From Crambe crambe (lineage: Eukaryota > Porifera > Demospongiae > Poecilosclerida > Crambeidae), in contig OZ004590.1 of NCBI GenBank assembly GCA_963924555.1, positions 3,504,501 through 3,568,500 on the forward strand: a stretch of DNA of 64,000 nt, read 5' to 3'. Positions 23,966 to 60,896 of this stretch are shown one piece after another. The number at the start of each line of letters is the position of its first letter. Position 1 is the first letter of the stretch. Below the pieces are notes generated by a model, which worked only from the letters and a program-made list of their open reading frames with translations, made no database searches and was not told where the DNA came from. The position numbers and the translations under genes were made by a program.

Positions 23966-25037
23966 CTACTGTATATCTACAGAGTCTTCTTCATGCTGCA
24001 TTTCAAAAAATACGTTGTTTGTTCCAGCAATGCCATTGAAATCCAAATTCATAGAGTTGCTAAAGATATCAATGCCCTGAGAATCTCTTGCTGCAAGTTC
24101 CATGTCTCCAAGCATTGCACCAGTATTCTCTATGACATCATTCGAATCCATGGTTGTGGGAGATTGTGTTTTTTCACTAACCCAGACAATATTGAAGTGC
24201 TCAGACTCACGGGTCTTGTTAACCCAGAGAACATTGAAGTTATCCCGGGTCTTGCTGGGATTGTTATCTTCTTTGGGCAGTGGCTGGATTTCGATCAAGT
24301 CAAGACCTTCAGTAGAAATAGAACTCATTCTGGCAGAAGGATTGAATAGAGTCAGTTGAATTTGTTCTGTTTTGGCACCCTTTAAAGATTGCTGGTAAGG
24401 ATCTTTAGAAGTAGATGTGTCATAAAGGAAACAACTCTCCTCAGGATGCAGAGATAAGTCCACATCCTCCTCTTCTATAGCAGAACTTTCTCGTCCTTGT
24501 TTTGTGACCTTCTGGAATGTGCTATTGCTGTATCCATAGGAAGTGGACAAGGAAGTGCGTTTGGAGGATGAACCCGTTAGTCCACTGCTGCTAACATTGC
24601 TGTGCTGCTTTGGTTTTTTCTTGGCTCGAGTGAATGACACTTTGTGGCATGTAATAACATAAATCCATGTCTTCCACTCCTTACGTACTTCATCTGAACG
24701 TACGCAGTGCACTAAGAAAATCCAAAGTCCTTGGAAACCAGTTAGAAAGATAAAAATAGCTTGCAGTGTAGTAGAAATGGCAATGATCCTGATGCTTGAC
24801 GTGGCAGCCAGTCCCACGCCCCATCCCAGCCCAAAGAGAATAGACAGGATCAAAGCGATGATGAAGTTTTGCTTGAATTTTGACTGCATCGATTTTTGTT
24901 TTCTGGGAATTTCGCTAGTCTTCTTCTTGAAGAGAAGAGAAACTAAGATCCAAATGAAAATGCCCCAGTTTAGAATGTATATGATTCCGAAAGGAGCAAT
25001 CAAGCCTCCGTAGAAGGGTCCACCAATAGAACGACAG
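23966..25037 (-). CDS. GPCR TM5-TM7 and cytoplasmic tail (last exon)
   Basis: The exon enters in phase 2 with [20 protein letters not shown]; this Cys is the conserved second-extracellular-loop cysteine. TM5 follows ([20 protein letters not shown]), then TM6 ([20 protein letters not shown]) and TM7 ([20 protein letters not shown]), ending in the typical [15 protein letters not shown]. The tail of roughly 200 residues is Ser/Thr-rich ([19 protein letters not shown]) with acidic clusters and ends EEDSVDIQ. It has no obvious PDZ ligand. The stop is at 23966-23968. Confidence 0.93.
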
Positions 25038-30100: not shown

Positions 30101-31008
30101 GCTTGCTCAGTGCATTTTATTTAGCTATAAGCAGTTAGCAACTCACCAGGCATTCCTGATCATATTTAAGTTACTGTTTGCTGTCTTATAAAGCTTTAAA
30201 GTTTAACATAGTATTTAATTAGCTTCCTAGACTCTGGGTGTTTTGCTCCCCAGACAGACTTAACTACTACTTTGCAATGTAACATAGGGCCTGAATGTGA
30301 GATAGCTCAACACAAGAAGATATGTGACCTGATGTGAGAATTCCCTCAAGCTCCTTTCTCATGCACATTCAGGCACTGCACCTTTGTAGGAAACAAGCAC
30401 TTACACTGCAGAATCAGCCTGTCTGGGGAGCAAAATGGAATGTGCTTGCTTAACTACACCTCACAGTCAGAACTATAGATTTTTCTATTTTTCTCCTGCC
30501 ATGATGTAGCTCAGCTAATGTACACCTACTTTGAAATGGCATAAGTCAGAATAGTGAGTGTCAGACAAACGATGGAAACAATCGCTCCAATGTAAGAAAA
30601 AGCTTTCAGGAAATCTTCTACTGGTGTTGGTGGTGTGCTGGTTCCCCTCACAGGGTTAGGATCCTGCATGTCAACAGCCAAATAGTAGTTTTTTACTTGA
30701 CCATACTTCATTTTTCCATTCACTGACTTACCAAGAGGATGGCAAAGTTGGTGAGGTGATCACATTGGCATGTCACCAGCGTGTCATTTTCTTCAACCAC
30801 ACTGCAGCCACTGGTTGACCAATCCCCAAATCCATCTACAATTGAGAAAATCACAACAATAAGTAGCCACTGCATGCATTGTATCAGGGTTTCATAAAGG
30901 TTTTTTTACAGGAGAGGGGAAACCATCTGAGTGATGGATATTTTGCATGAACACACCCACTCACACCAAAACAGTCTGGCTACACAGCCTCTTCCAAGCA
31001 AGTCTGAT

Positions 31009-31039
<31 letters not shown>

Positions 31040-34000
31040 GACATTACATACCATCTGCTCCAAAATCCCAGAAGTTACAACTAGAATTGGTGCCATTCTC
31101 AACTGAGGGTTTCTTCAGGAAAGTGATAAGAATAGGATCAAGAAGATTTTCTACCCTCTTATTGTTGGAGAGAGAAGCAGCCATAACAATACTCCCAACC
31201 TCTAGATTGTTCTTCTCCCTCTTCACAAACAAAGTATCGGTCAGGTAAACTGAGTTGGTAATCCTTGGAGGAGCAGATGTTCCATTTGATAGAGCTGCTG
31301 AGTCATTAAAGATGGTGGCAGGTATGCTGAGAAAGGCGGTGAAATTTGGAGTCTTCTTAAGGCTGATGGCATTTATGTCAATAGTCTGATCCTGGTTGAA
31401 GTCAAAGCTCTCCCCAAAGTTAGCACTGAAGTCCTGTCCAGTGAATGCATTCTGATCAACTTCCAGTACAGAAATAGCAAACGATGTCAGAGGAATAACC
31501 ACTGAGGTCTTATTTTCTGGGAGAGGAATCCTTTCTGCCACACCCTCAACCACACTCAGGATTCTATAATGTATTCATATGTACATATACGTGTGTACAA
31601 ATCAACTCACTGATCTGCTGCAGCTATGCTTACCTAGCAGAAGTATTTGATGTCTCTTGGCTCTGTTGAATTTCTTCTTCATTAATATGTAGTAGGTTGT
31701 CCACAACAGTTAAAAAGCTCTCAGAAACCTAAAGGTATCATAGAAGAAGAGAGTAGCTACTAATGGCTACTGATGCATGAATAAAAGTAACTAGCTAGTT
31801 TGACGCATGTTTATTGCAATTTTTGGAAGAGCGTGTGGGCATCACAAGTATAGTTGATGCTAGAGCTCCCAGACCAAAAAAAAAAAGAAAAGAAGAAAAG
31901 CTGGGCTGGCGACACCAGACTAGAAAGCCTCATCATTTAGCAATAAGTTAATTGTGCTGGTGCTACATTATCAGAATAGGCGTCAGAAATGGGGGTACTA
32001 CCCCCATTTTTTTTACAATGTTCCCTGAGAAAGTTGCTCTGCCAGATACACACATACGAACTATGGTCATGGGCATGGTCTGGACGTGTGTATGATCTAC
32101 TGTTGTGCAGCTCTAAATATAGACAGAGCTCCTTGCTCAGAAGATTAAGAAGGAGGAAGGGACAGTAAACAATGTTTGCCAGCAGTTCAGCACCCCCATT
32201 CTCAAACACCTTCCTACACCTATATATTTTTACAGAAACAGGCAGGACCAAGAATTTGGTCAGAGTCAGTTGCAATTATTATAAGGCATCTTCAAACCAC
32301 AAACTCAGAGACCACAAGCACCCTAGGCTTAGCTTGTTCAGACATCAGCTAGTCTGCATGGTGACTTCACATTCATGCCACTATTGACTCCTTACATTGC
32401 TGTTCAACTGTGTGTTCTCAGAGACTGTTTCCAACAGACTGGTGGTGATTTCAATATCCACAGCACCTAAATTATCTTCATTGCTTGTGATGTTACCCAA
32501 AGTACTGATAGCTTCTTCTGGTTCATCAAGCAGCTATTATGATGATTAGCATGTAAAAATTCAAGTGATCAGATTTTGATTGACTTACATTTGCCACTTG
32601 ACAGAGTCTTCGAGTGGTGCTAGTGAAATTGCAACCTGAGACCATGGCAGTATCCCAGAATGCTCCTGTGGAGAATGACCCCTTGCACACACGGTAAGCT
32701 GTCCTATTAACAGAACTTCCTGTAACAGCAGAGAGATTACCACAAGGACAGCCAAGGGTTAGATTTGTGCCAATGTCTGTCTCAGACCACTCCAAAGTTA
32801 CACTTAGCCCATTGGGCTCCAGAGGTGGAAGAATGGTCTCACCTTCCTCACAGCCATCTGGAAAGTCTATATCATAGCACCTATCACTCTATTTAATTAT
32901 GACACTGTACCAAATCTTTCCACACTTTCCACTATGATGTCAATTTCAGTCGCAGTGATTTCCAATCGCAACATCAACTGCTGAGTGAGGTCTGGACTAC
33001 CTCCCTGTGGAGCAAGTATGGTGATAAGAATAGGGATGCTGGTGTTTTCAGTGCCATTAAGCGCAGTTGCCCTGGTGATGGAGTAGATGGTAGCATTTCC
33101 AAGAGCCACTCCACTGAGACGACTGGAAATCTATAGTAAAGTGAGAGAGGAATGTATTGGTTCACTTCATGTCCCCTTTATTCATTCCATTCTCTCACCA
33201 TGTTTACTAGCTGATCCGACTCATCTTCACTGGCTCGCTTACTTCTCTTCTGAGTTCTTCTCACAATACTCCTGTACTGTGCAATACCTGTACGTAGTAT
33301 GTAGTTAAATCAGCAACTATAAGAGGTAATGCATGCTCAGGACATGTACTAACTCCTCTGCTGGCTTCTACAAGTGACATAATACCTTTGATGTTGATAA
33401 CTATTTCATTAGATTGATCAATAGCAATCGTTTTTGGATCATTTGGGTCAAAATTAGAAGCATTGCAGTGATATGAGCCTCGATCCATGAGACCGAATTC
33501 CTTGATGATCAGTATGTGTCTGTTTTCTCCCTGGAGCAGCCTGCCATCTTTGAACCAGGTGATATTGGGTTCTGGGTCTCCTTCTGCCTCACATGTCAGA
33601 TTAACTGACGTTAACAACTCAGGAAAGGATTCCAGAATTGGATCAGCAATAATGACTGCTTTTTCAAAATTCTTTCTTTCTGAAGATGTATGAGAATTTG
33701 AAGTAGATTGCCACACATGACAGATTGATAATCAATCAAACATGCAAATTGTTATGAAAACCACTCACCTTCGGTGCAGTTAACTCCTCTCCATCTCATG
33801 GGGTCACAGGTACAGAGATAACCAGATGTTTGACTGGAACAAACACCTCCATTTCTACAGGGCATTGGCTTGCAGTAATCAATAGGTTCTGTAAAGAGCA
33901 CAATAGTGACCAGTTCATTCATTTTGATAAGTCACACGAAAACAACAATCTACTGACCCACCTGGCACAACATTCAACTCAAAGATGGAGGAAGAAACTG

Positions 34001-40000: not shown

Positions 40001-42320
40001 GTGGTCATCATTGTAATAAACACAGCATTGCCATGGTACTTACTTGGTTCCCAATCTCCACACGTCTGTAATTGATGCTGTATTGAAGAATATTCCCAAA
40101 TGTCTGTCGAGGTTGGTCCCAAGTCAACAAGACAGTATCATGTCCTTGGGAGAAGTGCATGAGGTTAACTGGGGCTTCAGGAACTATAAAAGAAGTAGAG
40201 GGAGAGAGGGAAAGGAAGGGAGGGGGAGGGAGAGAGGGAGGGAGAGAGGGAAAGGAAGGGAAGGGGGAGAAGGAGGGAGAGAGAGAGAGAGAGAGAGGGA
40301 GGGAGAGAGGGAGGGAGGAAGGGAGGGGGAGGGAGCCGAGAGAGAGAGAGAGGGAGGGAGAGAGGGAGGGAAGGGAGGAGAGGAAAGTAGTGTGAAGGAG
40401 GGAAAGATCAAAGAAATAAGGACCTGCTAAAATTCTAAATCATGAATTACTTCCTTCCAATGTGATGTTATCAACACCCACGGAGAATGGTCCCACATCT
40501 TCAGTGTTCACTGCTGCCACTTGAACCCTGTACCGAGTGAAAGGATCCAAACCTGTTACGAAGAAGAAAACCTTCATTTATGAGTTCAGGACCAATTTTA
40601 ATCAGCAGGGTTCATTGGTGGTACTCACTATGGACAAGTCTCAGTGCAATAATACTAATACTAACCCGTGAGGTCAAAGTTCAAGTCCACACTTGAAGTG
40701 CTATTTATCTGGTTGCTGTCGTCAGCATCCAAGTTAGTCAAGTTGATGATATAGCCAGTAATCTCTCCATTGCGTTCAATAGCCGGCAGTTCCCTCCAGC
40801 TGACTGAAGCAGTGGTATTGGAAGTGATCAGAAAGTTAGTAATATTAACAGCTCTTCCTGGCACTGAAAAAACAAAAATCACATAAGAAGCAAGTTTAAA
40901 ATAAAGTCACCATGAACTTTTTAAATTTCAATGGAAAGACTTACGAGCAGGGGGAGTACGTACAGTGACCTCTGACCCTGGTCCACTGCCGACGTTCGTA
41001 CTGGCATTGACACGAATGGTGTAATTAGCGAACTCCTGCAGACCCTCCAGTACTACCATGGTGATGGTGCCCCCAGTTCTTTCTTCCCGAGACTCCGTAT
41101 CGAAGCTTCCTCTGTAAGTGATGCTGTATTCCCGGAGGACTCCATTTTGATCCTCAAAGTCCGGCTCTCTCCAGCTGACTCTTAGCGTTGTTGCATTAAG
41201 AGGAGTGGCACTGAGGTTATTGGGTGCGGCTGATGGTGCTGGAAGTGCAAAATAAACAAACAAACAAACAAATAAACAACAACAATGTCTTCCAGTCACC
41301 AAGCAACAGATTCTGGTGCATATTGATTAATAATTATTAACCTTATAGTGTTACATAAGTCATAGTGTCATAGTAGCTAATCATGATGTGCTAGTGATAG
41401 AAGATTACATAATCGTGATTCTTATTCTCTTTACCTGCTTCAAGTGTGGAGACATCAAGAGAAGCTGTAGGTCCCTCTCCTGCAGATGTCCGAGCTCCAA
41501 TCGTGAATGTGAAATTATCGTTCTCATTAAGCTCGTCAAATGTGTGGGATAATCCGTCACCAGAATACACGGTAACTGTTCCACCTTGATACCTGATAAT
41601 GTAGTCTGTAATGATGCCATTGGGTACTGTGGGCTCATTCCAAGCCAGAGTGATGGAGGTAGCAGTGACACTGCTGTTCCTAAAGTTCTGTGGAGGGTCA
41701 CCAGGTGCTGCAAAAATCATGGAAGGAAAAAAACAAACAAAAAAACAAACAAACTAAGTCATATTTCCATTCACCTTGCCCCTTGATCATTCTATTATAA
41801 CTTTCTCAATTCTTGACCAAAATTCAAACTTTGAATACCATCAGAAAGACTGGATGATCAGCTCTCTGTTGATGCATTAAACAAGAAATTTGGTTAAGAA
41901 TTGAGAAAGTTATAGCAGTTATAGTGAATGATCAAGGAACAAATAGAATTTTATTAGTCAGGTGTCCTCAATACAGAGTATATGGTCCATAATTTTGCTT
42001 ACTGCTTTCATTGGTCATGACAATGACATTGCTTTCATTTCCAACTTGAACCGTAATAGCCGACAGAAAGATCGAGTAATTCGTAAATGGCTTCAGATCT
42101 TCGAGAGTTCTCTCAAAGATGCTACCACTAATGTCGACCATGGATGAGTTGCTTGGACCGAGCTCTGTTATGAAATATCTGATTCTGTAGTTGCGTATCA
42201 TCCCATTAGGCATTGCAGGAGCTGTCCAAGTGAGTGTAATGCTGGATGAAGTCGTCCTTACTGGCTCATTGATGCTGGGAACAGATGGAGCTATGGGGAA
42301 AATAAGGATGTTATTAAACA

Positions 42321-42378
<58 letters not shown>

Positions 42379-48300: not shown

Positions 48301-51300
48301 TTGCCATGACATTGGTAGGAGCTGAAGGGGCTATAAAAACAAAATTAATTGAATTAATTCGGCCTTTCTTAAGAGGGGGTGGGGGAGGGGGTGTGGTGCA
48401 AGAGAAGTGTGGACGACTGGGTACCATACACAAGTGGTAAGGAGTTGTTTACACTATATACCTGTTTCGTTGGTTTGGACTGTGACTGGGTCACTTGGTT
48501 GACCGATACCAGCTCCAGTGAATGCATGTACGATGATGGTGTAGTTTGTGAATGGATCCAAGCCTGTTAGCTGTTCAGTTCTTCCTGAAATATCACTCAC
48601 TTCCAAAGTGATATTGTTTGAACTTCCATCATTTGTTTTATAATAAGTGATATTGTAACGTCTGATCTCTTCATTGGGCATGCTCGGTTCTGACCAAGTA
48701 ACAGTAATAGAATTGAAAGATACAGCTGTTGCCATGACGTTGGTAGGAGGTGAAGGGGCTATAAAAACAAAATCAATTGAAGTAATTCTTTAGAAGGGCG
48801 AAGGGCCTTTCTTATTGGGGGGGGGGGGGGGGGGGGGGGGGTGTGGTGCAAGAGAAATGTGGACGGCTGATAGCTGGGTACCATACACAAGTTGTAAGGA
48901 GTGATTTATACCTGTTTCGTCGGTTTGCACTGTGACTGGGTCACTTGGTTGACCGATACCAGCTCCAGTGAATGCATGTATGATGATGGTGTAGTTTGTG
49001 AATGGATCCAAGTCCATCAGTTGCTGAGTTCTTCCCAAAACATCACTCACTTCCAAAGTGATACTGTTTGAACTTTCATCATTTGTTTCATAATAAGTGA
49101 TATTGTAACGTCTGATCTCTCCATTGGGCATGCTCGGTTCTGACCAAGTAACAGTAATAGAATTGAAAGATACAGCTGTTGCCATGACGTTGGTAGGAGG
49201 TGAAGGGGCTATAAAAACAAAATCAATTGAAGTAATTCTTTAGAAGGGCGAAGGGCCTTTCTTATTGGGGGGGGGGGGGGGGGGGGTGTGGTGCAAGAGA
49301 AATGTGGACGGCTGATGGCTGGGTACCATACACAAGTTGTAAGGAGTGATTTATACCTGTTTCGTCGGTTTGCACTGTGACTGGGTCACTTGGTTGACCG
49401 ATACCAGCTCCAGTGAATGCATGTATGATGATGGTGTAGTTTGTGAATGGATCCAAGTCCATCAGTTGCTGAGTTCTTCCCAAAACATCATTCACTTCCA
49501 AAGTGATATTGTTTGAACTTCTATCATTTGTTTCATAATAAGTGATATTGTAACGTCTGATCTCTCCATTGGGCATGCTCGGTTCTGACCAAGTTACAAT
49601 AATAGAATTAAAGGATACAGCTGTTGCCATGACATTGGTAGGAGCTGAAGGGGCTATAAAAACAAAATTAATTGAATTAATTCGGCCTTTCTTAAGAGGG
49701 GGTGGGGGAGGGGGTGTGGTGCAAGAGAAGTGTGGACGACTGGGTACCATACACAAGTGGTAAGGAGTTGTTTACACTATATACCTGTTTCGTTGGTTTG
49801 GACTGTGACTGGGTCACTTGGTTGACCGATACCAGCTCCAGTGAATGCATATACGATGATGGTGTAGCTTGTGAATGGATCCAAGTTCCTCAGTTGCTGA
49901 GTTCTTCTGAAAACATCACTCACTTCCAAAGTGATACTGTTTGAACTTTCATCATTTGTTTCATAATAAGTGATATTGTAACGTCTGATCTCTCCATTGG
50001 GCATGCTCGGTTCTGACCAAGTAACAGTAATAGAATTGAAAGATACAGCTGTTGCCATGACGTTGGTAGGAGGTGAAGGGGCTATAAAAACAAAATCAAT
50101 TGAAGTAATTCTTTAGAAGGGCGAAGGGCCTTTCTTATTGGGGGGGGGGGGGGGGGGGGGGTGTGGTGCAAGAGAAATGTGGACGGCTGATGGCTGGGTA
50201 CCATACACAAGTTGTAAGGAGTGATTTATACCTGTTTCGTCGGTTTGCACTGTGACTGGGTCACTTGGTTGACCGATACCAGCTCCAGTGAATGCATGTA
50301 TGATGATGGTGTAGTTTGTGAATGGATCCAAGTCCATCAGTTGCTGAGTTCTTCCCAAAACATCATTCACTTCCAAAGTGATATTGTTTGAACTTCTATC
50401 ATTTGTTTCATAATAAGTGATATTGTAACGTCTGATCTCTCCATTGGGCATGCTCGGTTCTGACCAAGTTACAATAATAGAATTAAAGGATACAGCTGTT
50501 GCCATGACATTGGTAGGAGCTGAAGGGGCTATAAAAACAAAATTAATTGAATTAATTCGGCCTTTCTTAAGAGGGGGTGGGGGAGGGGGTGTGGTGCAAG
50601 AGAAGTGTGGACGACTGGGTACCATACACAAGTGGTAAGGAGTTGTTTACACTATATACCTGTTTCGTTGGTTTGGACTGTGACTGGGTCACTTGGTTGA
50701 CCGATACCAGCTCCAGTGAATGCATGTACGATGATGGTGTAGTTTGTGAATGGATCCAAGCCTGTTAGCTGTTCAGTTCTTCCTGAAATATCACTCACTT
50801 CCAAAGTGATATTGTTTGAACTTCCATCATTTGTTTTATAATAAGTGATATTGTAACGTCTGATCTCTTCATTGGGCATGCTCGGTTCTGACCAAGTAAC
50901 AGTAATAGAATTGAAAGATACAGCTGTTGCCATGACATTGGTAGGAGGTGAAGGGGCTATAAAAACAAAATCAATTGAAGTAATTCTTTAGAAGGGCGAA
51001 GGGCCTTTCTTATTGGGGGGGGGGGGGGGGGGGGGGGTGTGGTGCAAGAGAAATGTGGACAGCTGATGGCTGGGTACCATACACAAGTTGTAAGGAGTGG
51101 TTTATACCTGTTTCGTTGGTTTGCACTGTGACTGGGTCACTTGGTTGACCGATACCAGCTCCAGTGAATGCATGTATGATGATGGTGTAGTTTGTGAATG
51201 GATCCAAGTCCATCAGTTGCTGAGTTCTTCCCAAAACATCATTCACTTCCAAAGTGATATTGTTTGAACTTCCATCATTTGTTTTATAATAAGTGATATT

Positions 51301-54300
51301 GTAACGTCTGATCTCTCCATTGGGCATGCTCGGTTCTGACCAAGTTACAGTAATAGAATTAAAGGATACAGCTGTTGCCATGACATTGGTAGGAGCTGAA
51401 GGGGCTATAAAAACAAAATTAATTGAATTAATTCAGCCTTTCTTAAGAGGGGGTGGGGGAGGGGGTGTGGTGCAAGAGAAGTGTGGACGACTGGGTACCA
51501 TACACAAGTGGTAAGGAGTGGTTTACACTATATACCTGTTTCGTTGGTTTGGACTGTGACTGGGTCACTTGGTTGACCAATACCAGCTCCAGCGAATGCA
51601 TGTACGATGATGGTGTAGTTTGTGAATGGATCCAAGTCTGTTAGCTGTTGACTTCTTCCCGAAATATCACTCACTTCCAAAGTGATATTGTTTGAACTTC
51701 CATCATTTGTTTTATAATAAGTGATATTGTAACGTCTGATCTCTCCATTGGGCATGCTCGGTTCTGACCAAGTTACAGTAATAGTATTGAAGGATATAGC
51801 CGTTGCCATGATATTGGTAGGAGGTGAAGGGGCTATGGAAATATCCAAAATCATCATAACAAGTTGAACTGAATTAAAGCAGGGCCTTTCTTGTAATCAT
51901 GTGTGTGTGTGTGTGTGTGTGTGTGTGGGAGGGGGTGTGGTGAGCATGGACCGGGTACCATGCAACTATACATAATATGTGAAAGTGGTAATTACCTGTT
52001 TCGTTGGTTTGGACTATGACTGGGTCACTTGGTTGACCGATACCAGCTCCAGTGAATGCATGTACGATGATGGTGTAGTTTGTGAATGGATCCAAGCCTG
52101 TCAGCTGTTCAGTTCTTCCTGAAATATCACTCACTTCCAAAGTGATATTGTTTGAACTTCCATTATTTGTTTTATAATAAGTGATATTGTAACGTCTGAT
52201 CTCTCCATTGGGCATGCTTGATTCTGACCAAGTAACGGTGATAGTATTGAAAGATACAGATGTTGCCATGACATTGGTAGGTGGTGAAGGGGCTATAGAA
52301 ATATCCAAGATCAAAGGCCTTTCTAGTAAGTGTACATAGGGGGTGTGGTGCGGTGTGGACTGGGTACCATGTGACTATACATTAATCATGTGGAAGTGGT
52401 AAGGAGTGATTTATGCCACATACCTGTTTCGTTGGTTTGGACTGTAAGTGGGTCACTTGGTTGACCGATACCAGCTCCAGTGAATGCATGTACGATGATG
52501 GTATAGTTTATGAATGGATCCAAGTTCATCAGTTGCTGAGTTCTTCCCAAAACATCACTCACTTCCAAAGTGATATTGTTTGAACTTCCATCATTTGTTT
52601 TATAATAAGTGATATTGTAACGTCTGATCTCTCCATTGGGCATGCTCGGTTCTGACCAAGTAATAGTAATAGTATCGAAGGATACAGCCGTTGGCACGAC
52701 ATTGGTAGGAGGTGAAGGGGCTATGGAATATTGTAAATAATTGAATCAATTTTAAAAGGCCTTTTAGGGTGTGGTTAGATGGGGGAGTAAAAGAAAGATG
52801 GAGTGTGGACTGAGTTCTACACAGAGTGATTTATCCTCATATCCAGGCCCACTTCTTTCACATGGCAGTAGTTTTCCACTGCCCTGCGAGAAAAGTGGGC
52901 TTGGGTACAAGGCTATGAGTGATTATACCTGTTTCATTGGTTTGGACTATAAGTGGGTCACTTGGTTGACCGATACCAGCTCCAGTGAATGCATGTATGA
53001 TGATGGTGTAGTTGGTGAATGGATCCAAGTCTGTCAGCTGTTGAGTTCTTCCCGAAACATCACTCACTTCCAAAGTGATATTGTCTGAACTTCCATCATT
53101 TGTTTCATAATAAGTGATATTGTAACGCCCGATCTCTCCATTGGGCATGCTCGGTTCTGACCAAGTAACGGTGATAGTATTGAAGGACACAGCTGTTGCC
53201 ATGACGTTGATAGGAGCTGAAGGTGCTGTATCAAATTGTTGAAACAGAACAAAAGTAAAAGTCTCAGAGGGAAATGCACTGTAGTCTAAAATTGCATGAT
53301 ATGAAACTTTCATGGAGTAGATTTTTTAATGGACTCATGGTCTTTAAAATTTTCACACTATAAATTAAATTGAAAAAGGTACATGGTGAGATTAAGTGAT
53401 GAAACATTAGCTTACTGGTATCACAGATTCACAGTCACCTAATAATAATACGTACCATCCTGATCAGTTGTAGCATTCGTCATGGCAGCCATTCCCGAAC
53501 CAGCACCAGTCACGGCTACCACTTCAAACATATACTCGGTAAAGGGCTCCAATGCATCTAGATTAAGGCTAGTTCCCATGGTGATATTTGTAAAGTTGAT
53601 TGCACTTCTGGTTGTCAGGATGTAGTGCTGAATGATTCCATTTCTCTGTGCTGGTTCCATCCATGCCAGAGAGATTGATCGTGGACCATTCACTGTAGCA
53701 GTGAAACTCCTAGGAATCCCAGGGGCTGTGAGAGAAAAGGGAAAAGAAAATGAAGTCAGTGAGTCAGTTTTATACAGCAACATAAAACAAGAAACTAAAG
53801 TAAGCATCTCATTACAGGGAGACAGGTTTCACTGTATACGTAGGTGCTGTTGGAACATGGCAGAGTGGCCTTAATAGAGAGGGTGGTCTGATTAGACAGG
53901 TTTCACTGTAGGTGGAATAGGTGCTGTTGGGACATGGTGGAGTGACCTTAATAGAGAGGTGGTCTCATTACAGGGTGGTCTGATTAGACAGGTTTCACTG
54001 TAGCTGGAATAGGTGCTGTTGGGACATGATGGAGTGGTCCAATTAGACAGGTTTGACTGAATTAGTTAACTTGTCTGACCTGCTTCTGCAGTGGTAGCAT
54101 CAGAAGAGGCGGAGTCAGGACCCTCTCCAGCACTTGTATTGGCCGAGATGACACACGCATAATTTGTGAATGGCATCAAGTCCTCCAGCAGTTCAGTTCC
54201 ATCAACACTGGAGGAATCCAGCACCAAAATGACTTCAGATCCATTGCACTTGATGGTGAAGTTTCTGATAATTCCATTGGTGGGATCTGGTTCGTCCCAT

Positions 54301-56588
54301 GAGGCCATCAGCGTGTCTGCAGATCCGATATTTGTGAGGTTAAAATTCCTAGGAGCTGATGGGGCTAGAAAAAGAAGCATTACACATGATTATCACTTTG
54401 ACAGAAATAATGGCAGAAAAGAATCATTTCACAGCAGTGTTATTCACTGCTAACTAAAATAATTATTCATAACACAGTGACAGAAAGAGTCAGTCACAGC
54501 AGTCACATAAAAGAAATAATCATTCTGACAGGAGTACTGACAGAGAGAAATTATTAAGCCAAAATAAAGTCTGAATCACTGATAGTTCTGATAGTTACAG
54601 TGTGTACGCATGCTTACCATCTTCAACAGTTCTCTCCAAATCAGCAGTAGAAGCATTTCCCATACCTCCATTAGTTGCAGCAAATACTGAGCACTGGTAG
54701 AGCGTAAAAGGGTCGAGACCACTCAAAGTTAAAGACAGAGATATAGTTTGATTGTCAGGGTCTTGAAGCTCGTGTGAGCTTCCATTACAGGTGACTGTGT
54801 AGCTCTGTATGATGCCATTGGCAGACGAGGGGATGGTCCAGGAGGCCAAAAGTCCTTGTGGATTACCAGCTAATGGAGACAGTGAAAAATTCTGAGGGGA
54901 GGATGGAGCTGGAGACAAGAGACAGAGAGAAAAATAAACAAAAAAACAAGCAAATAAACAACAATCTTGTAATACTCAATAGTATTATGGACCTGATACG
55001 AGTGTATAACCTGTTTATTTTAGCATGTGTCCATTGGCCACAGTCCTACGTATGTATGTATCATTAGACTCAAACTTTCAAATAACGTCATGTTCAATAG
55101 AATTAGTTCTCATAAAATTACCTTATGAAATAAACCACCAACGTTTCGACCAGAATACTCTAGCCTTCATCAGGGTGATACAAAAAAAAAAAAAAAAATG
55201 CACACAGAAACGTCCTTATATAGCTACGCTCGTTATCTAGACAACGCACATGAATTTTTATCATGTTAGCTGAGAATAATAAGCAGAGTTTGAAAGTCAT
55301 GTTGCTGTTATTTTAAGCTTCTCTGATTCATGATAACAGAAGACTTGCTGGAGAAGGAAAACATCAAAGTGTTTCTGAAAAACGCACATCAGAGAAAGCT
55401 AAACTAACAAAACATCTGCTCTTTAAAAAAAAACACACAACAATTTCAGCTATTTGAGTGTCTGTAAGCTGTTAAAAACAACTTGATATGCGACCAATAA
55501 TAAGTAGAAATCTACAGCCACTCCTATGTACATTAGTTATAAAATCTTTCACTTTCCTGTGAGTGTATTTTCTGTATTGTGACAGTTCACAGTTAAAGAT
55601 TGAAATATCATTCCTAGCTTAACTGTTTCTCAAGCATTATGATGAAAAATTTCTTATCATAACGTTTCTATAACGGTTGGACTATGCATCTCTACGCTGA
55701 ATTTTCAGCACTGGGAGACTGACTATCATTACTCCATGTACATGTTGCTCAATTCATGAAAAAGTCGTCAATTTTTTTATCTCTATTACTGGGACCATCA
55801 CAAAAATTAATGATTACCTTCTTCTATGGTCTGTTGACTCATTTCCTGTGTCTCCTCCCCACAACCAACTTCACTGCATGCCTGCACTGATACTAAATAC
55901 ACCGTGAAAGGCTGGAGGTTGGCAATTGTCAGGGAGAGTTCATCCGGTCCTGTTCTCAGCTCTGTGATGGTACTGTCCGTGTCTTGCCTGTAGGACACCG
56001 TGTAATTGACTGAGGGGGCATTGAGACGGCTTGGCTGCATCCAGGAGACACTCAAAGTCCCTGCTCCCTGAGGGGTGACGGATAAGGACAGAGGTACAAG
56101 GGGAACTGCAGTGGACAGAGAGATGGTCAAGATCATAAGGAGTTGATTGAATTGATTTTACTTACTTCCAATGTCGGTAGTGAAACTCTGACTCGCTGTG
56201 GTTCCAGCAATTGTGTCATTGTTGGTAAAGGGTTGCACTCTGACAGAATAATTGGCAAACGGTCTCAGGTTGGTGAAGTTTGCTTCAGTTGTCAGTGCAT
56301 CCACGTCAGGAGCTGTCTCTGTGAAGTCAGTACTATTGGTCAAGATGACTTGGTACGAGGATATCACTCCATTGGGGTCAGCTGGGGTATTCCAGGTCAC
56401 AAGGGCAGAGGTATTCGTTGTGGTGACCATGAGGTTCTGTGGCTCACTAGATACTGTGTTAATCATAAAATAAACCAGTTATTGTCTTTTCTTATCTGGT
56501 AGGGGAGAGGGAGGGGGAGGGAGGGGAGAGGGAGGGGGGAGGAAGGAGGGGGAGGAGGAGGAGGGGAGAGGGGGGAGGAAGTGGGAGG

Positions 56589-56629
<41 letters not shown>

Positions 56630-58638
56630 CACTATTGTCTTGGCCTCATGTGAAGCCTTCTCCTCCTCCCGCCCTCCTTCCTTCATATGAATGTGTTCTA
56701 TTCTTACCAGTACAACCTAAACTATCATTTGCCAGAATATACCCTCTGCCACAGAAACAATCGAAAGAGCCAACAGCGTTATTGCACGTTTGATTGCATC
56801 CTCCATTGTTTGTTTGACACTCATCCACATCTGAAAAAAACACATTACTTATGTAGCTACAAATGTGTTCTTAAATTCAATTCTTACCAGCACAGCCTAA
56901 ACTATCATTTGCCAGAATATACCCTATACCACAGAAACAAGTAAAAGAGCCAGCAGTGTTAGTGCATGTCTGATTGCATCCTCCATTGTTTGTTTGACAC
57001 TCATCCACATCTGAAAAAACACATTACTTATGTAGCTACAAATGTGTTCTTAAATTCAATTCTTACCAGCACAGCCTAAACTATCATTTGCCAGAATATA
57101 CCCTATACCACAGAAACAAGTAAAAGAGCCAGCAGTGTTAGTGCATGTCTGATTGCATCCTCCATTGTTTGTTTGACACTCGTCTACATCTGAAAAACAC
57201 TTAATTACTTACATGCTACATAATGTGTTATTAAATCTTACCAGTACAGCTTTGATTATTATTTGCCAGAATATATCCTGTGCCACAGGAACATTCGAAA
57301 GAGCCAACAGTGTTAGTGCATATCTGATTGCATCCTCCATTGTCATTTAGACACTCGTCCTGATCTGGAAATTACAATTTTTGTATTATTTGAAAGTTTC
57401 AATTCAATTCTTACCATTGCAATCTAGACCGTCATCAGCCAGAGTATACCCTATACCACAGGAACAATTAAAAGAGCCAGCTGTGTTATTGCATGTTTGA
57501 TTGCATCCTCCATTGTTGGTTTGACACTCATCCACATCTTAATGTCAAAAAAATATAATATATGTTAATATTTTGATTCAATTCTTACCATTACAGTCTA
57601 GACCATCATCTGCCAGAATATACCCTGTGTCACAGGAACAACTAAAAGAATCGATAGTGTTAGTACATGTCTGATTGCAACCTCCATTGTTGATTAGACA
57701 CTCATCCTCATCTGTAAATCACAATTTTTTATTTATCGAAAGTTTCAATTCAATTCTTAATTACCATCACAGTCTATTGGACTTAACAAAAGCTACTGCG
57801 AATTCTTGTTTACTAGAATATTGGACTCCATGTATTATTAATACGGAGAACCAAATTTAAACTACTGCATTGGAGTAGAGTTTGTTATTCTGTCACCATT
57901 TTTTTTTGTTATTTCAAAGCTATTACGTATAGGGATTGTAGGCTATATACAGAACAACCCATTTCATCACTACTCTTTCAAGCCACAAACTATGGTAGCT
58001 TCAGATAATATAGTGCGGGATTGTTGGCTGGATATGCAGAATAAAGATCGACCTCATTTCATACCTACCCTCTTACTTGAGCAATGGTCATCCCTATACT
58101 CTTTTCATTTCACAGAAATGCATTTCCTTCTTTGTATTTTATGCTCTATTATTATATTATAGGCAACTGGATGCTGTAATCCTGCCATCAAAGTTAAAGT
58201 TCACGTATTGTAGCTATGTAGTTCATTGGAGGTTTCATCGTAATCTTGTATGATTTGGAAGGACTAATGCTATCTATACAGTTTATAATAAAGATTCAGC
58301 TCAGGAGTTGTGCACAGTCAGCAATCTTCGGAAGGAAGGACGCGAATATAACACGATAATTATTCGAAAGAAGTGTTGGAAATTTTTCCAGTGCAACTCC
58401 TGCGGATACCTGGAGTAGTTCTTTGGCTGATGTGCACCCTGGACCGTACAGTGCCTCTTCTTTTTCCTATGATCACTACTCGCAATCATTACATTACACG
58501 TCTGTCTGTCCCTACCCTTGTACCTTTTTGACAATGGGTCATCCTCATACTGTTTTCATTTCGCTGAAATGTTTCCCCCTCAATCCTATAGTGATTAGCC
58601 TCAGGCAGCACATGCACAAGTCAGTTGAGTGTGTGTGT

Positions 58639-58669
<31 letters not shown>

Positions 58670-60896
58670 GGTGTGTGTGCACGCGCGCATGTGGTGTGTG
58701 TATGTTACAAGGGTAGGGACAGATGATGGTGTCAATCTTGTTCTGTATATCCAGCCAACAGTACAATCCCTACATAATTATATGTCACACTCAAGCCATA
58801 AGCTATGGTAGCTTCTGTATGTTAAATGTAGGAGCTCTTTTTTCTATAATATGTATGCAGGGACAGTTTCTTGAGTATGTATAGCCGCGTAGTTCTCCTG
58901 GCAAGCTCCTTGACATAGCAATGTTATGATCAGGTCCACCATGCTGCCAGTAGCAATTAGAAAAGCAGATCGAGTGCTTTGTTTTATGCAATAGCCAGGG
59001 TTTATACCCAAGGGGGGCACACCCACACTTTTACCTAACCACACCCTTTCACGCCTACTTATGTATTGTATTATTGGATGCATTTATTACCTGCACTATG
59101 CAAAGGAAGCTATACCAGCTCTATCTATGCCTACCTTTAGAGCTGGTACCTATTCCCTTAAATTGTTTTGCAAAAAAATGGCTTTTAGGCTCAACTATAT
59201 GACTATTGCAATGATGGAAGAAGTACTCAATGCAGATGGTAGGTCCATTGTTGCTGGATAGATTAGATAATCAAAATAGAAAGGATTATGCCTTGTAGCT
59301 ATTCAGTAAAAACACTTGTGTTATATGAGATGCATTTCCGGTATTCTTTGTTATAGCAAAAGTTTGCTGCATGGACGAGCTAAAAGCACAGTGCATGGGT
59401 GGGTTGCAGCACACTCTAACTTTATGCGATTTAAAGTTCAAGCAGCTTCGTTGATCTTTGGGCTGGGCATGACACAATACTGCAGATTAATATAATTATC
59501 TAGAAACTCCATGGTAACCCCATTGTATTTCTTGATGATGGAAGTATTTCCCCTCACCTGTATTACAGCATAATTATTTGAGGCATGGGATTCTGAATGT
59601 CAAGTGCTATTTGAGTCGGTTATCTGTGAATGCAGAGCCTAATATGATGCAATGCTAAACAAACAACCATTACATGTGCAGTCATGCATCCAATGCATGT
59701 AGCAATGCAATGATATTGTGGACAGGTAAACTCCCACTCTTTTTTATAATATAAAAGCTTGGGGACTGAATGGACAAGAGCCATGGATGAATCCTGCCTA
59801 GCTGTTTCAGGTTTTCAAGCAACAGGGAGATGTCCAGTATATGTGAATGACTTCACAAGTCCTGAACCAAATTAGCTGCAGCAACGTATAGCCTGTATAC
59901 GTATGTAAAATATATAATCCAGCTCCAAAGCAAAAGACCATTCCACATTAAATTTAAAACCAGTGGGGCCAAATTTTAACACCCCAGTGATGTTTCATTC
60001 CTCATTCCATCAAGCTTCTGTGATGTTTCTCCTGAGGCTCAATATTAATTGATCAGATGACCTGTCATGCAAATATTGGTCCTCCCAAAAATAGTTATCC
60101 ATCTTGCTGACATCGATATAGCTAGATGGCCCACTCTCTTTTGGGAAGATGGGCTATGTTGGGCTATGTACAGTCTATTGAGGGAGGGGAGCAAAATACT
60201 ACCTGACACTTCCATTAGTTACATAGCTAATAAGTTATTGACTGCATACATCCACACCCATCACTGGCTTAAAGCTTAACATACATCTGCATGCATGCAA
60301 CCTATAGCTGTGGCTGACTGTTAAATTTTTAAACTCTAATTCACAATTAAATTTTAAGTAAACTCAATTGAATCATAACATTCTTATGGCTGATACTTAG
60401 CTAATGCATTTTCTGAGGCAATTAAACTCTGAATTTTGCTTCACTTGTGTGTGTGTAGGAGGTGGGGAGGGAGGTTTCCCCTTGAGGCTATCTTGTTTCA
60501 GCTTGGACCACAGGATGTATATGTAGCTAATGCTCTATAGGACTATTTTAACGACTGGTAGGTTTACTAGGCATTTTCCTTAGATTTCCTAGCTATCATC
60601 TTTGCAGACTTATTTTGCTAAAGCAGAGGGGGTGCAGAGTGCTAGCATAGATCACAGCTAGAGTCCTTTGCTATAACCAGAAACATAAATTCCATATTAA
60701 ATATAATGGCTGGTCTTCACCATCAGCTACTGAAATTGAGAAGAGCATTAATTTATCTAAATATCGAACCTTCAGATGACTCAGTGTAGAGTGGGATGAC
60801 GGTTGAGTTCAACTCACCACTTCCACTCTGTGCCGACACTCTTCCACCATACAGCAGTGCAAACACAAACAGACAATGGAGTAGGACTTTCCCCAT
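23966..60896 (-). CDS. Giant adhesion-type GPCR (EGF6-FN3x33-Ig10-EGF-Ig-HRM-GAIN/GPS-7TM)
   Basis: Gene-level model of 64 exons over 36.9 kb, read right to left. Exon lengths sum to 17,079 nt, divisible by three, predicting about 5,692 residues. The extracellular domains lie in symmetric phase-1 exons. The GAIN-GPS-7TM core places it among adhesion GPCRs (class B2), which are autoproteolysed at the GPS and signal through a tethered agonist. Ig plus an RSKR site before GAIN recalls ADGRF5 (GPR116), and the size rivals ADGRV1, but FN3-rich ectodomains are not typical of vertebrate members. A cell-surface adhesion or recognition receptor is the inference. Two genes, with a split between the Ig and FN3 blocks, cannot be excluded without transcripts, but phase 1 is conserved across that 1.8-kb intron. 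Blocks follow. Confidence 0.8.
25319..25397 (-). CDS. GPCR TM4 exon
   Basis: 79 bp, phase 1 to 2, encoding [20 protein letters not shown]. It joins the preceding exon as AWIVPIFIVV, matching the W-x-(V/I)-P TM4 pattern of adhesion GPCRs. Donor GTGAGT. Confidence 0.9.
25398..26683 (-). other. Intron between TM3 and TM4 exons
   Basis: 1.29 kb. It contains a foldback at 25583-25774 (GTCTATTTGCATTCACCTT inverted at its right end; a relative lies at 41760-41945), a perfect-looking hairpin at about 25842-25918 (TTGTCCCAATACACACAC and its complement), and a small element at 26056-26135 bounded by AGAACACGGTAG and CTACCGTGTTCT. No exon seen. Confidence 0.7.
26684..26967 (-). CDS. GPCR TM2-TM3 exon
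   Basis: 284 bp, phase 2 to 1. It reads [20 protein letters not shown] (first loop and TM2), then [20 protein letters not shown] with the conserved TM3 Cys and the LLHYF motif, then [14 protein letters not shown]. These are signature residues of adhesion GPCRs. Confidence 0.95.
27101..27130. repeat. Poly-G tract in intron
   Basis: About 30 consecutive G residues on the plus strand (poly-C in the transcript), next to GGGGGTGG. Quadruplex formation is plausible. Confidence 0.93.
27330..27790. repeat. Tandem duplicate of a unit of about 230 bp starting with an AGAGAGTGC palindrome
   Basis: 27330-27556 and 27558-27786 match closely (TATCAGAGAGTGCGGTAGCA, then CTCTCTAAGTAGGGATGGC and an AAACTCTTCTTTCTCTTCTA segment). 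An inverted copy lies at 62870-63075. Confidence 0.85.
27815..28740. repeat. Dispersed repeat present twice (27815-28040, 28515-28740)
   Basis: Both copies run from ATAAGATCGACGTACCG through CTGGCTATAGTCATCAAAAT and TAGAGCGGCACCTAGAGG to GGGGCGGGGCTTATGGGCGG. A partial inverted copy is at 62705-62860. TAA microsatellites precede both copies. Confidence 0.85.
28242..28501. mobile_element. Foldback element with 109-bp arms
   Basis: Arms 28242-28350 and 28393-28501 are inverted copies of equal length (CAAGTGAGCGCAAAAAATTT at the outer end), with a 42-bp loop. A single diverged arm occurs at 29060-29160. Confidence 0.9.
29544..29990. mobile_element. Foldback element with 216-bp arms
   Basis: Arms 29544-29759 and 29775-29990 are inverted copies of equal length with only a 15-bp loop. 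The outer ends CAAGTGAATGCAAAAAATTT relate it to the 28242 element. Confidence 0.92.
30241..30435. mobile_element. 195-bp element with 17-bp inverted ends
   Basis: TTTTGCTCCCCAGACAG at 30241-30257 is inverted at 30419-30435. No target duplication is evident. Confidence 0.6.
30530..30663 (-). CDS. GPCR stalk after GPS and TM1
   Basis: 134 bp, phase 0 to 2. It encodes [20 protein letters not shown] and then TM1, [20 protein letters not shown], ending YAIS. The (L/F)SYIG...S(L/I)VCL(L/T)LTI pattern is a hallmark of adhesion-GPCR TM1. Confidence 0.95.
30732..30835 (-). CDS. GPS motif exon
   Basis: 104 bp, phase 1 to 0: [18 protein letters not shown], then [16 protein letters not shown]. The four conserved GPS cysteines are supplied jointly with the preceding exon (CNFWDF). 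The cleavage tripeptide H-L-T (codons at 30750-30758) is intact, so autoproteolysis between L and T, freeing the TNFAILL tethered agonist, is expected. Confidence 0.96.
31052..32533 (-). CDS. GAIN domain exons
   Basis: Exons 32396-32533 ([20 protein letters not shown], helical subdomain A), 31634-31728 ([20 protein letters not shown]) and 31052-31563 (subdomain [57 protein letters not shown], then [11 protein letters not shown]). This is the standard GAIN layout ending in the first GPS cysteine-W-D-F. Phases 1-1, 1-0 and 2-1 depend on the boundaries chosen, and the total keeps frame. Confidence 0.9.
31729..32395 (-). other. Intron within GAIN
   Basis: 667 bp. 31850-31925 contains an imperfect hairpin (GAGCTCCCAGACC...GGCTGGCGACACCAGACTAG) related to the GC-rich hairpin near 19470. 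No exon seen. Confidence 0.55.
32589..32857 (-). CDS. Hormone-receptor-motif-like (HRM) exon
   Basis: 269 bp, phase 1-0. It reads [38 protein letters not shown] and [17 protein letters not shown]. Trp, then CPxG, xRxC, G-(A)-FW, C and LC spacing matches HormR domains, which commonly precede GAIN. The phase entering GAIN relies on the acceptor at 32533. Confidence 0.75.
32911..33287 (-). CDS. Furin-like site and pre-HRM module
   Basis: Exon 33199-33287 encodes [24 protein letters not shown] (33235-33246) is a consensus furin site. Exon 32911-33130 encodes [32 protein letters not shown]-like beta strands and [20 protein letters not shown]. The second exon may be a SEA-like fold, as in GPR116 where a SEA domain with furin-type cleavage sits between Ig and GAIN regions, but I cannot confirm it. 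Confidence 0.7.
33386..33888 (-). CDS. EGF domain followed by Ig domain 11
   Basis: Exon 33769-33888 is a non-calcium EGF ([20 protein letters not shown], then [14 protein letters not shown]). Exon 33386-33679 is an Ig-like domain: [43 protein letters not shown]. Both are phase 1-1. Confidence 0.9.
33962..37865 (-). CDS. Ten Ig-like domain exons
   Basis: One Ig per exon, phase 1-1: Ig1 37551-37865, Ig2 37176-37496, Ig3 36637-36960, Ig4 36244-36576, Ig5 35903-36184, Ig6 35546-35845, Ig7 35200-35487, Ig8 34782-35123, Ig9 34398-34727, Ig10 33962-34297. Most show the C...W...D-x-G-x-Y-x-C signature, e.g. [18 protein letters not shown] with [11 protein letters not shown] in Ig1. Ig7 and Ig9 keep the fold pattern ([32 protein letters not shown]) but lack both disulfide cysteines. 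Domains are divergent, so this block is old and stable compared with the FN3 array. Confidence 0.92.
38012..38558 (-). pseudogene. FN3 exon fragments split by a MITE
   Basis: 38012-38068 matches the middle of the array exons (ACGTCTGATCTCTCCATTGG on the plus strand) and 38498-38558 matches their 5' end (GGATATAGCTATTGC...GGTAGGAGGTGAAGGGGCT). The insertion separates them. The 3' third of the exon is also missing. Not part of the predicted protein. Confidence 0.85.
38071..38495. mobile_element. 425-bp Tc1/mariner-like MITE with TA duplication
   Basis: Starts CCGTACAGCAAG and ends CCTGCTGTACGG, inverted ends flanked by TA at 38069-38070 and 38496-38497. No coding capacity. It lies exactly within the dead FN3 exon. 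Confidence 0.88.
39690..43431 (-). CDS. C-terminal FN3 block (FN3-27 and FN3-29 to FN3-34)
   Basis: Exons 43135-43431 (FN3-27), 42434-42730 (29), 42003-42290 (30), 41435-41707 (31), 40945-41238 (32), 40666-40863 plus 40451-40552 (33, split by an intron) and 40044-40183 plus 39690-39831 (34, split). FN3 landmarks are seen in each: the conserved W of the B strand (e.g. [15 protein letters not shown]), the Y of the C strand, and the L-x-P-x-T-x-Y segment ([15 protein letters not shown]). FN3-29 belongs to the array sequence family, the others are diverged. I use number 28 for the broken copy at 42919-42985. Confidence 0.88.
40197..40400. repeat. GA-rich low-complexity tract
   Basis: Purine-rich GGGAGGGAGAGAGA sequence of about 200 bp within the intron following FN3-33. 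It yields spurious ORFs on both strands. Confidence 0.95.
42317..42379. repeat. CAG/CAA trinucleotide repeat
   Basis: About 9 CAG followed by about 12 CAA units, in the intron between FN3-29 and FN3-30. Its poly-Cys or poly-Ser/Asn translations are not protein. Confidence 0.93.
42919..42985 (-). pseudogene. Truncated FN3 exon (FN3-28)
   Basis: After a normal acceptor it encodes [20 protein letters not shown] and W, matching FN3-5 ([20 protein letters not shown]), then breaks into a C-rich tract at 42909-42919. The second half of the domain and the donor are absent. Inclusion would disrupt the frame, so it is probably skipped. Confidence 0.8.
43736..43767. repeat. GGGCTA hexamer repeat
   Basis: Four to five GGGCTA units next to the donor of the FN3-25/26 exon. 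Confidence 0.85.
43778..45008 (-). CDS. FN3-24 and the two-domain exon FN3-25/26
   Basis: Exon 44742-45008 encodes FN3-24 ([20 protein letters not shown]). Exon 43778-44392 (615 bp) encodes two FN3 domains without an intron ([20 protein letters not shown], then [20 protein letters not shown]), the only such fusion in the gene. Loss of one intron, or retro-processing of one junction, would explain it. Phase 1-1. Confidence 0.88.
45391..51404 (-). CDS. Tandem array of 14 nearly identical FN3 exons (FN3-10 to FN3-23)
   Basis: Every exon is 297 bp, phase 1-1: 51108-51404, 50660-50956, 50232-50528, 49785-50081, 49357-49653, 48912-49208, 48462-48758, 48034-48330, 47585-47881, 47157-47453, 46712-47008, 46265-46561, 45837-46133, 45391-45687. 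The shared core is [20 protein letters not shown] with YNITYY and [15 protein letters not shown]. Each domain carries several N-glycosylation sites. Four variant types (W, Y, X, Z) occur in the N-to-C order Y', W, Y, X, Y, Z, W, Y, X, Y, Z, X, Y, X. All exons are open and spliceable. Confidence 0.93.
45747..51040. repeat. Poly-G tracts phased with the FN3 array introns
   Basis: Runs of about 18-25 G on the plus strand at about 45747, 46620, 47067, 47941, 48817, 49267, 50140 and 51015. The alternating introns carry GGGGGTGGGGGAGGGGG instead (46178, 47498, 48375, 49698, 50573, 51448). In the transcript these are C-rich tracts in the middle of introns of about 130-150 nt. Confidence 0.93.
47010..50973. 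repeat. 2.2-kb higher-order repeat of the FN3 array
   Basis: Sequence at about 47010-48775 recurs 2,200 bp further on (49210-50973), apart from a few substitutions and poly-G length changes. The repeat unit is five FN3 exons (W-Y-X-Y-Z). A second, shorter offset of 1,320 bp (three exons) relates 45690-46590 to 47010-47910. Confidence 0.9.
51536..53225 (-). CDS. FN3-6 to FN3-9, array-family domains
   Basis: Exons 52929-53225, 52424-52720, 51996-52292 and 51536-51832, each 297 bp and phase 1-1. Same family as the array ([20 protein letters not shown]) but with more substitutions, and the introns lack the poly-G tract (a GT microsatellite at 51900-51927 occupies one). They look like older members at the N-terminal edge of the expansion. 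Confidence 0.92.
53456..56453 (-). CDS. FN3-1 to FN3-5, N-terminal diverged FN3 domains
   Basis: Exons 56166-56453 (FN3-1: [20 protein letters not shown]), 55818-56105 (2: [20 protein letters not shown]), 54618-54908 (3), 54080-54364 (4) and 53456-53725 (5: [20 protein letters not shown]). All phase 1-1 with FN3 W and Y landmarks. Domain 1 joins the last EGF exon in phase 1. Confidence 0.9.
53815..54060. repeat. Tandem repeat of about 85 bp in intron
   Basis: AGACAGGTTTCACTGTA and GTGCTGTTGGGACATGG segments recur about three times with indels between FN3-4 and FN3-5. Confidence 0.8.
54909..55817 (-). other. Intron between FN3-2 and FN3-3
   Basis: 909 bp. 55090-55300 is a partial, single-arm copy of the 6453-7245 foldback element, interrupted by an A-tract. 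No exon seen. Confidence 0.7.
56495..56625. repeat. GA-rich low-complexity tract
   Basis: GGGGAGAGGGAGG followed by a (GA)n run, in the intron between the EGF and FN3 blocks. Confidence 0.93.
56708..57711 (-). CDS. Six cbEGF exons of the GPCR
   Basis: 123-bp phase 1-1 exons 57589-57711, 57415-57537, 57242-57364, 57067-57189, 56888-57010 and 56708-56830. Typical sequence: [35 protein letters not shown]. They belong to the same exon family as the array at 44-3609. The exons at 56888 and 57067 are nearly identical, flanking introns included, a recent duplication. The first one reads [12 protein letters not shown]. Confidence 0.92.
57712..60817 (-). other. First intron of the GPCR gene
   Basis: 3.1 kb. 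At 57773-57784 a seventh EGF exon survives only as its last dozen bases (CCATCACAGTCT) after its donor, then joins repeat sequence (ACTTAACAAAAGCTACTG, also near 63770). Other contents are foldback-like repeats at 57920-58110 and 58480-58790 with CGGCTGGATATGCAGAAC-type motifs shared with 38740, the 58160-58290 copy of the 21090 repeat, and a GT microsatellite (58626-58682). I see no coding exon. Confidence 0.65.
60818..60896 (-). CDS. First coding exon, signal peptide of the GPCR
   Basis: ATG at 60894-60896 (reverse) gives [18 protein letters not shown] then RVSAQSGS, a classical signal peptide with a likely cut near VSA-Q. The 79-nt exon ends in phase 1 at GTGAGT and joins the first EGF exon as SGSDEDEC. 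It is homologous to the signal exon at 13848-13923. Assignment to this gene rests on phase, orientation and absence of a nearer candidate. Confidence 0.78.

Follow-up and report, generated by a model that had tools for sequence, protein, structure and literature searches.

A predicted giant adhesion GPCR of the sponge Crambe crambe with an FN3 rod apparently copied from a receptor tyrosine phosphatase gene

On the minus strand of a 64,000-nt stretch of Crambe crambe DNA (the window, contig OZ004590.1, C13:3504501-3568500), we identified a gene, hereafter gene A, which is probably one continuous adhesion receptor with a rod copied from a phosphatase. Its domains are arranged in the order signal peptide, six EGF, 33 FN3 and one broken FN3, ten Ig, EGF, Ig, HRM, GAIN/GPS, and 7TM. 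If all of them belong to one gene, the product would be a class B2 adhesion GPCR of approximately 5,700 residues. A search of the genome (143 Mb, 119 contigs) with one FN3 unit revealed a second array on contig C11, with up to 93% identity, and comparison of the two sequences makes it nearly certain that the FN3 block of gene A and the ectodomain encoded by a receptor tyrosine phosphatase gene there arose by copying, the phosphatase very likely being the source. The first-pass annotation of the window, which was made without a genome to search, missed both this phosphatase origin and the changing stalks of the receptor family.

Gene model and domain architecture

A semi-Markov exon search recovered gene A as a single minus-strand gene from 60896 to 23966. 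The coding score of this search had been trained beforehand on 36 stretches chosen by hand from the same region, and in this respect the search was not blind. The uncurated model had 68 exons and 17,757 nt, and a search with a looser penalty yielded 108 exons, was over-split, overran both gene ends, and was discarded. After curation based on splice context and homology, gene A comprises 65 exons (17,178 nt, 5,725 amino acids) with no internal stops and GT-AG at all introns. Both gene ends and the exons of the first-pass annotation (64 exons, 17,079 nt) were recovered. Without the broken FN3 exon (42986-42867) the model has 64 exons and 17,058 nt, and with a doubtful linker exon (39474-39418) it has 66 exons and 17,235 nt. 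Two candidate exons were rejected: 27162-27034, because the exon ending at 30530 joins the one starting at 26967 directly and in phase, and 39609-39538, which is GTT-rich and intronic and has a C11 counterpart of different length. In addition, one exon start was cut back from 53285 to 53225, and the donor of exon 1 that the first search had placed at 60770 was replaced (table 1).

Introns 1–54 of gene A are of phase 1, with the sole exception of intron 41, located within an FN3 domain. The matching of phases had previously been taken as a sign of one gene. This sign is weak, since any two phase-1 blocks would join in frame.

Table 1. Parts of gene A and their positions in the window.
Feature	Position	Strand	Evidence and remarks
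Exon 1, signal peptide (26 residues)	60818..60896	-	Donor placed by homology to tandem genes B and C
Six EGF_CA exons, all phase 1-1	56708..57711	-	Pfam EGF_CA, 6 stretches, E 4.4e-34
FN3 block, a duplicate, introns included, of part of the C11 phosphatase ectodomain	39405..56684	-	blastn to C11:1135529-1120972
Five FN3 exons	53456..56453	-	98.2-99.6% identity to C11; Pfam fn3, 5 stretches
18 young FN3 exons, one domain each	45391..53225	-	Pfam fn3 in 18/18
Ten FN3 domains and the broken FN3 exon (42986-42867)	39690..45008	-	Pfam fn3, 10 stretches; more diverged half
Intron between FN3 and Ig blocks	37866..39404	-	Holds repeats, broken FN3 scraps, truncated-exon edge, and signal-peptide-like ORF 38381-38300
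Ten Ig exons	33962..37865	-	Collinear with C19 paralogue
Single EGF exon between Ig10 and Ig11	33769..33888	-	hEGF E 7.7e-4, under its cut-off; matched in gene B, C19, and four C1 copies
Eleventh Ig exon	33386..33679	-	Pfam Ig_2 best stretch
Linker exon, furin-like site RSKR↓ASEDE	33199..33287	-	Basic site in gene B and C19 too
HRM exon	32589..32857	-	PF02793 at E 0.027, below curated cut-off
GAIN/GPS exons, cleavage tripeptide HL↓T, then TNFAILL	30732..32533	-	Pfam GPS E 1.1e-14; ADGRG6, ADGRG2, and ADGRL3 alignments
7TM exons and long cytoplasmic tail	23966..30663	-	Pfam 7tm_2 E 1.3e-23, positions 4-250 of 250

Pfam reproduced the domain order and counts that had been proposed from the letters alone (6 EGF, 33 fn3, Ig blocks, GPS, and 7tm_2), with HRM being weak. 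The fn3 count is the sum of the 5 and 10 stretches in the outer parts of the block and the 18 young exons. I-set matched 10 stretches across the ten Ig exons plus the eleventh Ig exon. HRM of gene A was absent from the Pfam matches at E 0.01, and a profile of the HRM exon had no match among solved structures at E up to 10. When PF02793 was applied at E up to 1, six of the seven paralogous HRM exons were matched, including that of gene A (best E 8.5e-7). The reading that gene A has no HRM was set aside, because its own exon falls under the cut-off but the paralogous exons score better. In the linker exon, RSKR↓ASEDE is presumably a furin site, judged by the furin consensus, and the relatives have RTRR↓ASEDE (gene B) and RRRR↓ATEDE (C19) at this position.

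Gene A contains features of a class B2 adhesion GPCR, namely 7tm_2 and a GAIN domain with GPS and the H-L-T/S tripeptide (HLTNF at residue 5195 of the product). Together with ADGRG6 as closest solved relative, these features agree with the class assigned in the first pass. Read by eye, the H-L-T of the GPS and the 7TM loop cysteines reported then are present, as are the TM3 cysteine and the TM6/TM7 motifs. The 7TM region is encoded by exons 30663-30530, 26967-26684, 25397-25319, and 25037-23966, the last of which includes the tail. No Pfam match to Y_phosphatase, the cytoplasmic PTP domain, was found in gene A.

The FN3 block and its putative phosphatase donor

The FN3 exons of gene A from 56453 to 39690 are collinear, exon by exon, with C11:1135270-1121264. 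Both edges of the duplication can be read from the DNA itself. The 5' breakpoint (56684) lies in intron 7, approximately 24 nt past the last EGF exon, and the 3' breakpoint (39405) falls in the middle of an exon of the C11 gene, at the place where PTP_tm begins. Beyond this point the C11 gene encodes PTP_tm (E 3.9e-9), a membrane helix, and Y_phosphatase (E 3.8e-55) with an SAGVGR motif. Because the C11 exon continues into PTP_tm, the copied block appears to be a phosphatase receptor's rod that was truncated at the membrane-proximal domain. The donor looks like an R3-type receptor tyrosine phosphatase.

The exons in C11:1140370-1121264 read mostly as FN3 by eye, amid low-complexity false exons, and extra copies of PTP exons are located downstream of the donor's phosphatase exons. 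Outside C11, the best match of the phosphatase part by E-value showed 54% identity, and short pieces reached 58% at most (88 of 368 candidates scored). Many PTP-domain exons with 29-58% identity to the donor are present on C12, C9, and C13:3.59-3.86 Mb, and those on C13 adjoin the adhesion GPCR cluster. Downstream of the donor, C11:1117517-1087864 contains repeated NHL-like pieces mixed with partial second copies of phosphatase exons, as seen by eye.

Copying very likely proceeded from the phosphatase to the GPCR. If the FN3 array had instead been born in the GPCR and then been copied to the phosphatase, the larger young array of gene A (18 units and one apart, vs. eight and one apart in C11) would be easily understood. 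However, such a reverse direction is highly improbable given three observations. The copy on C13 ends inside an exon that C11 extends into PTP_tm, a domain of phosphatase receptors. The GPCR paralogues have no FN3 match: used as queries against the fetched paralogue stretches (C13, C19, and C1), the FN3 exons of gene A gave no match at E 1e-4. Moreover, a decaying fragment of the same phosphatase is located at C13:3576299-3572700, 7-11 kb upstream of gene A exon 1. This fragment contains the first FN3 exons of the phosphatase and two later ones; three frame-breaking gaps were found in its six exons, and a 9-nt loss removes a conserved tryptophan.

The divergence between gene A and C11 changes along the block. 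Up to exon 17 it is 0-3.4% over the exons and introns compared (5% in one exon); in exons 31-42 the exons are 3-9% and the introns 7-28% diverged, with dS of 5-19%. This pattern fits an older copy that would later have been partly overwritten or recopied, followed by growth of the array. Units 50956-49208 match units 48758-47008 one-to-one at 100% (rounded), forming a higher-order repeat of five units and about 2.2 kb. It is likely that the number of FN3 units differs among individuals.

Twenty-one of the 35 FN3-block exons were compared with C11, leaving out 13 array exons that lack a one-to-one partner and the broken exon. Over 5,820 aligned nt these exons contain no frameshift and one in-frame gap, vs. 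32 frame-breaking gaps in 3,672 aligned nt of 17 introns of the block. Under neutrality, about 25 frame-breaking changes would be expected in the compared exons on one branch. The dN/dS of these exons is 0.49, which may reflect constraint on C11 only, and the near-identical 5' half of the block offers little power for a selection test. Intact FN3 frames suit a fused receptor and a secreted EGF-FN3 protein alike.

Receptor paralogues and the probable continuity of gene A

Paralogues of the GAIN-7TM region were detected in the tandem gene B on C13, on C19, and in four copies on C1. Gene B matches gene A at 76-97% per exon, and at 54% in the last exon, which includes the tail. The C19 paralogue (6343291-6331504) has the exons of gene A from the first Ig onward, in the same order, whereas C1:4808460-4869621 contains four Ig-EGF-Ig-HRM-GAIN-7TM cores on both strands (29-74% per exon), with some exons not found in each. 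This core is common to gene B, C19, and the four C1 copies, and by such comparisons the receptor family reads as one constant core with changing stalks.

Gene B spans positions 1-13,923 of the window and C13:3489407-3504500, with its signal peptide at C13:3518423-3518348. Its upstream exons match IgGFc_binding (E 5.1e-44), NIDO (E 1.3e-26), and mucin-4-like (E 2.3e-10) domains in Pfam, and these are followed by 31 consecutive EGF exons (counted from the exon list) and then by Ig-Ig-EGF-Ig-HRM-GAIN-7TM. Gene B would thus be another giant mosaic stalk on an adhesion GPCR, with its one-gene status itself a model, because the exon search split it (3508484/3508453) and missed its signal exon. The flanks of the FN3 block, searched against the EGF-to-Ig intron of gene B for an empty insertion site, gave no match among the best 14 listed, and this intron is unlike them by eye.

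Other features were observed around these genes. The start of a gene C was recognized at C13:3487931-3485644, with a kindred signal peptide, EGF exons, and an IgGFc_binding-like exon (by likeness to that of gene B). Six EGF exons, unassigned to either gene, occupy 15,466-19,332 of the window, where they separate the 3' end of gene A from the signal exon of gene B. In the intron between TM exons of gene B, ORF stretches at C13:3496467-3492548 resemble an LTR retroelement by eye.

One transcript across the whole of gene A is the favoured reading. A single frame-consistent model and a homologous signal peptide, both predicted from genomic DNA, would link the ectodomain modules to the 7TM region. 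Pairwise blastn of 400-450-nt pieces revealed homology of exon 1 among the three genes (A-B 1.3e-8, A-C 1.5e-12, and B-C 7.7e-11). With a signal exon homologous to the heads of genes B and C, gene A resembles gene B at both of its ends. All 23 exons (6,566 nt) of the Ig-7TM half keep an open frame in the model; if this half had been non-functional from the older duplication onward, roughly 34 frame-breaking indels would be expected, at a rate taken from nine introns, some of them of low complexity. In 14 core exons aligned with gene B no frame-breaking gap was found inside the exons, and a lone gap at the very end of an exon proved to be an artefact of an end placed one base too far. The long EGF/FN3/Ig ectodomain on an adhesion GPCR described in the first-pass annotation is present as far as the domains are concerned, and probably as one gene.

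It is also conceivable, although unlikely, that the FN3 insertion split the receptor into two genes, one for a secreted EGF6-FN3x33 protein that ends in the truncated linker exon and one for a shorter Ig-HRM-GAIN-7TM receptor that starts from a repeat-borne exon at 38381-38300. C11 and C19 have the two halves as separate genes; on the other hand, the C19 counterpart of the first Ig exon is an internal exon. Transcripts ending between the FN3 and Ig blocks had been named earlier as evidence against one gene, and in the DNA the truncated linker exon, read on, does meet a stop at 39385, with an AATAAA at 39100. However, this stop lies just beyond the breakpoint, outside the sequence of the donor exon, where an early stop is expected by chance.

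A separate start upstream of the Ig exons had likewise been named, and a signal-peptide-like exon indeed occurs there. Exon 38381-38300 encodes a fair signal peptide of 27 residues with a phase-1 donor. Of 1,000 random windows of equal size on the opposite strand, only 14 contained an exon at least as good on both measures, so that mere chance was set aside as an explanation. Looser signal-peptide-like exons are nevertheless common (40% and 16% of 400 windows), and the source of this one is a dispersed repeat. The 191-nt stretch around the ORF was listed at 40 places including itself, the others with 79-92% identity (40 of 131 candidates scored), which means that the ORF lies within a repeat having at least 39 other places. 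In addition, its peptide is unlike the signal peptides of genes A, B, and C by eye, and only 6.8% of the donors of gene A score below its donor.

A single gene A would also be compatible with splicing of the FN3 block, whole or as cassettes, into some isoforms only, which would yield short and long receptors. The odds of such splicing overlap with those of the continuous receptor; we consider it quite possible while leaning against it. Among the inner and outer introns of the block, intron 41 is the only one that is not of phase 1, and thus exon 7 (EGF) could be spliced in frame to the first Ig exon, or most combinations of FN3 exons could be retained in frame. The broken exon could also be skipped without loss of frame. 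However, all 33 domains have open frames, which suggests that most of them are used.

Proposed origin and comparison with known receptors

Taking gene A as one continuous receptor, we propose that the ancestral receptor comprised a signal peptide, EGF and/or Ig exons, EGF, Ig, HRM, GAIN, and 7TM. The FN3 exons of an R3-like receptor tyrosine phosphatase gene would have been duplicated into the phase-1 intron that separated the EGF from the Ig exons of this receptor. With phase 1 at both of its ends, the block could be spliced into the receptor without a frame break. The truncated last exon is probably skipped, the exon ending at 39690 being joined to that starting at 37865. The FN3 array would then have expanded by tandem duplication of units of one to five exons. 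Such an insert would greatly lengthen the rod and bring with it the recognition surface of the phosphatase.

GAIN self-cleavage and signalling through a tethered agonist are general adhesion GPCR behaviour, and the gene A receptor would likewise cleave itself, signal, and have a ligand. The EGF-FN3-Ig rod may bind its ligand at a distance. GAIN would cleave itself at HL↓T, and pull or shedding would expose TNFAILL, which resembles known tethered-agonist peptides, as the agonist of the 7TM region. If furin cuts RSKR↓ASEDE between the last Ig and HRM, the rod could be either shed or held by contact. The role in surface recognition or self/non-self discrimination suggested in the first pass is not supported as stated.

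Over GAIN and 7TM, the best solved relatives of gene A are ADGRG6 and ADGRG2 (E 1.5e-49 and 5.4e-46). ADGRG6 has an HRM before GAIN and a furin site; it also has CUB, pentraxin, and SEA domains, none of which had a Pfam match in gene A, and it is several-fold smaller than the gene A product. ADGRV1 (VLGR1) is a giant adhesion GPCR with a long repetitive rod before GAIN-7TM, the rod consisting of Calx-beta. Gene A belongs to a similar size class and also has a rod, which is instead rich in FN3: no Calx-beta was matched by Pfam in the four scanned pieces of gene A or the 18 young units.

In the sponge Amphimedon queenslandica, EGF, fn3, Ig, HRM, and GPS domains are listed for adhesion GPCRs in a figure legend (Figure 4 of PMC4302439), and thus the architecture, which had been thought undescribed, is not wholly so. 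The Amphimedon set and gene A share 7tm_2, GPS, HRM, and extracellular EGF, fn3, and Ig domains; the legend gives these for the whole set rather than for single receptors, and no mention of copying from another receptor class was found in the passages on this set (PMC4302439). In R3 receptor tyrosine phosphatases, FN3 domains are reported to be encoded mostly by one exon apiece, flanked by phase-1 introns, and one sponge sequence is known (PMC5336234). These phosphatases have an ectodomain of FN3 repeats only and a single cytoplasmic PTP domain, whereas in gene A the same rod sits on a 7TM region. Gene duplication and domain shuffling have been suggested as a possible source of adhesion GPCR stalks in choanoflagellates and animals (PMC12716839); compared with the shuffling outlined there, the donor and the breakpoints of the event in gene A can be named and its divergence can be measured. 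In the open-licence literature, which was covered partly by title and the start of the abstract, we found no description of a GPCR that had acquired its rod from a phosphatase. FN3, Ig, EGF, and HRM domains are already on record for sponge adhesion GPCRs; new here are the size, the identification of a donor, and an array that is growing.

Exon shuffling via phase-1 introns is a textbook source of animal receptor stalks, and it is mostly inferred from ancient products. Here, a single genome contains the donor and the recipient, the breakpoints on either side, a sibling fragment in decay, and insert-free receptor copies, so that insertion, retention, and later growth are directly testable. Gene A would represent an exon-shuffling event that can be traced to its source, in which exons and introns were copied together, and a natural domain swap in which a phosphatase and a GPCR share the same rod. 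A more speculative idea, which we put forward tentatively, is that the same recognition surface is wired to two outputs, phosphotyrosine removal (C11) and G-protein signalling (gene A), that both receptors share a ligand, for which they compete or which they read jointly, and that the FN3 array is still expanding, with rod length depending on the individual. If this is true, rod length would likewise vary between individuals through the EGF array of the neighbouring gene.
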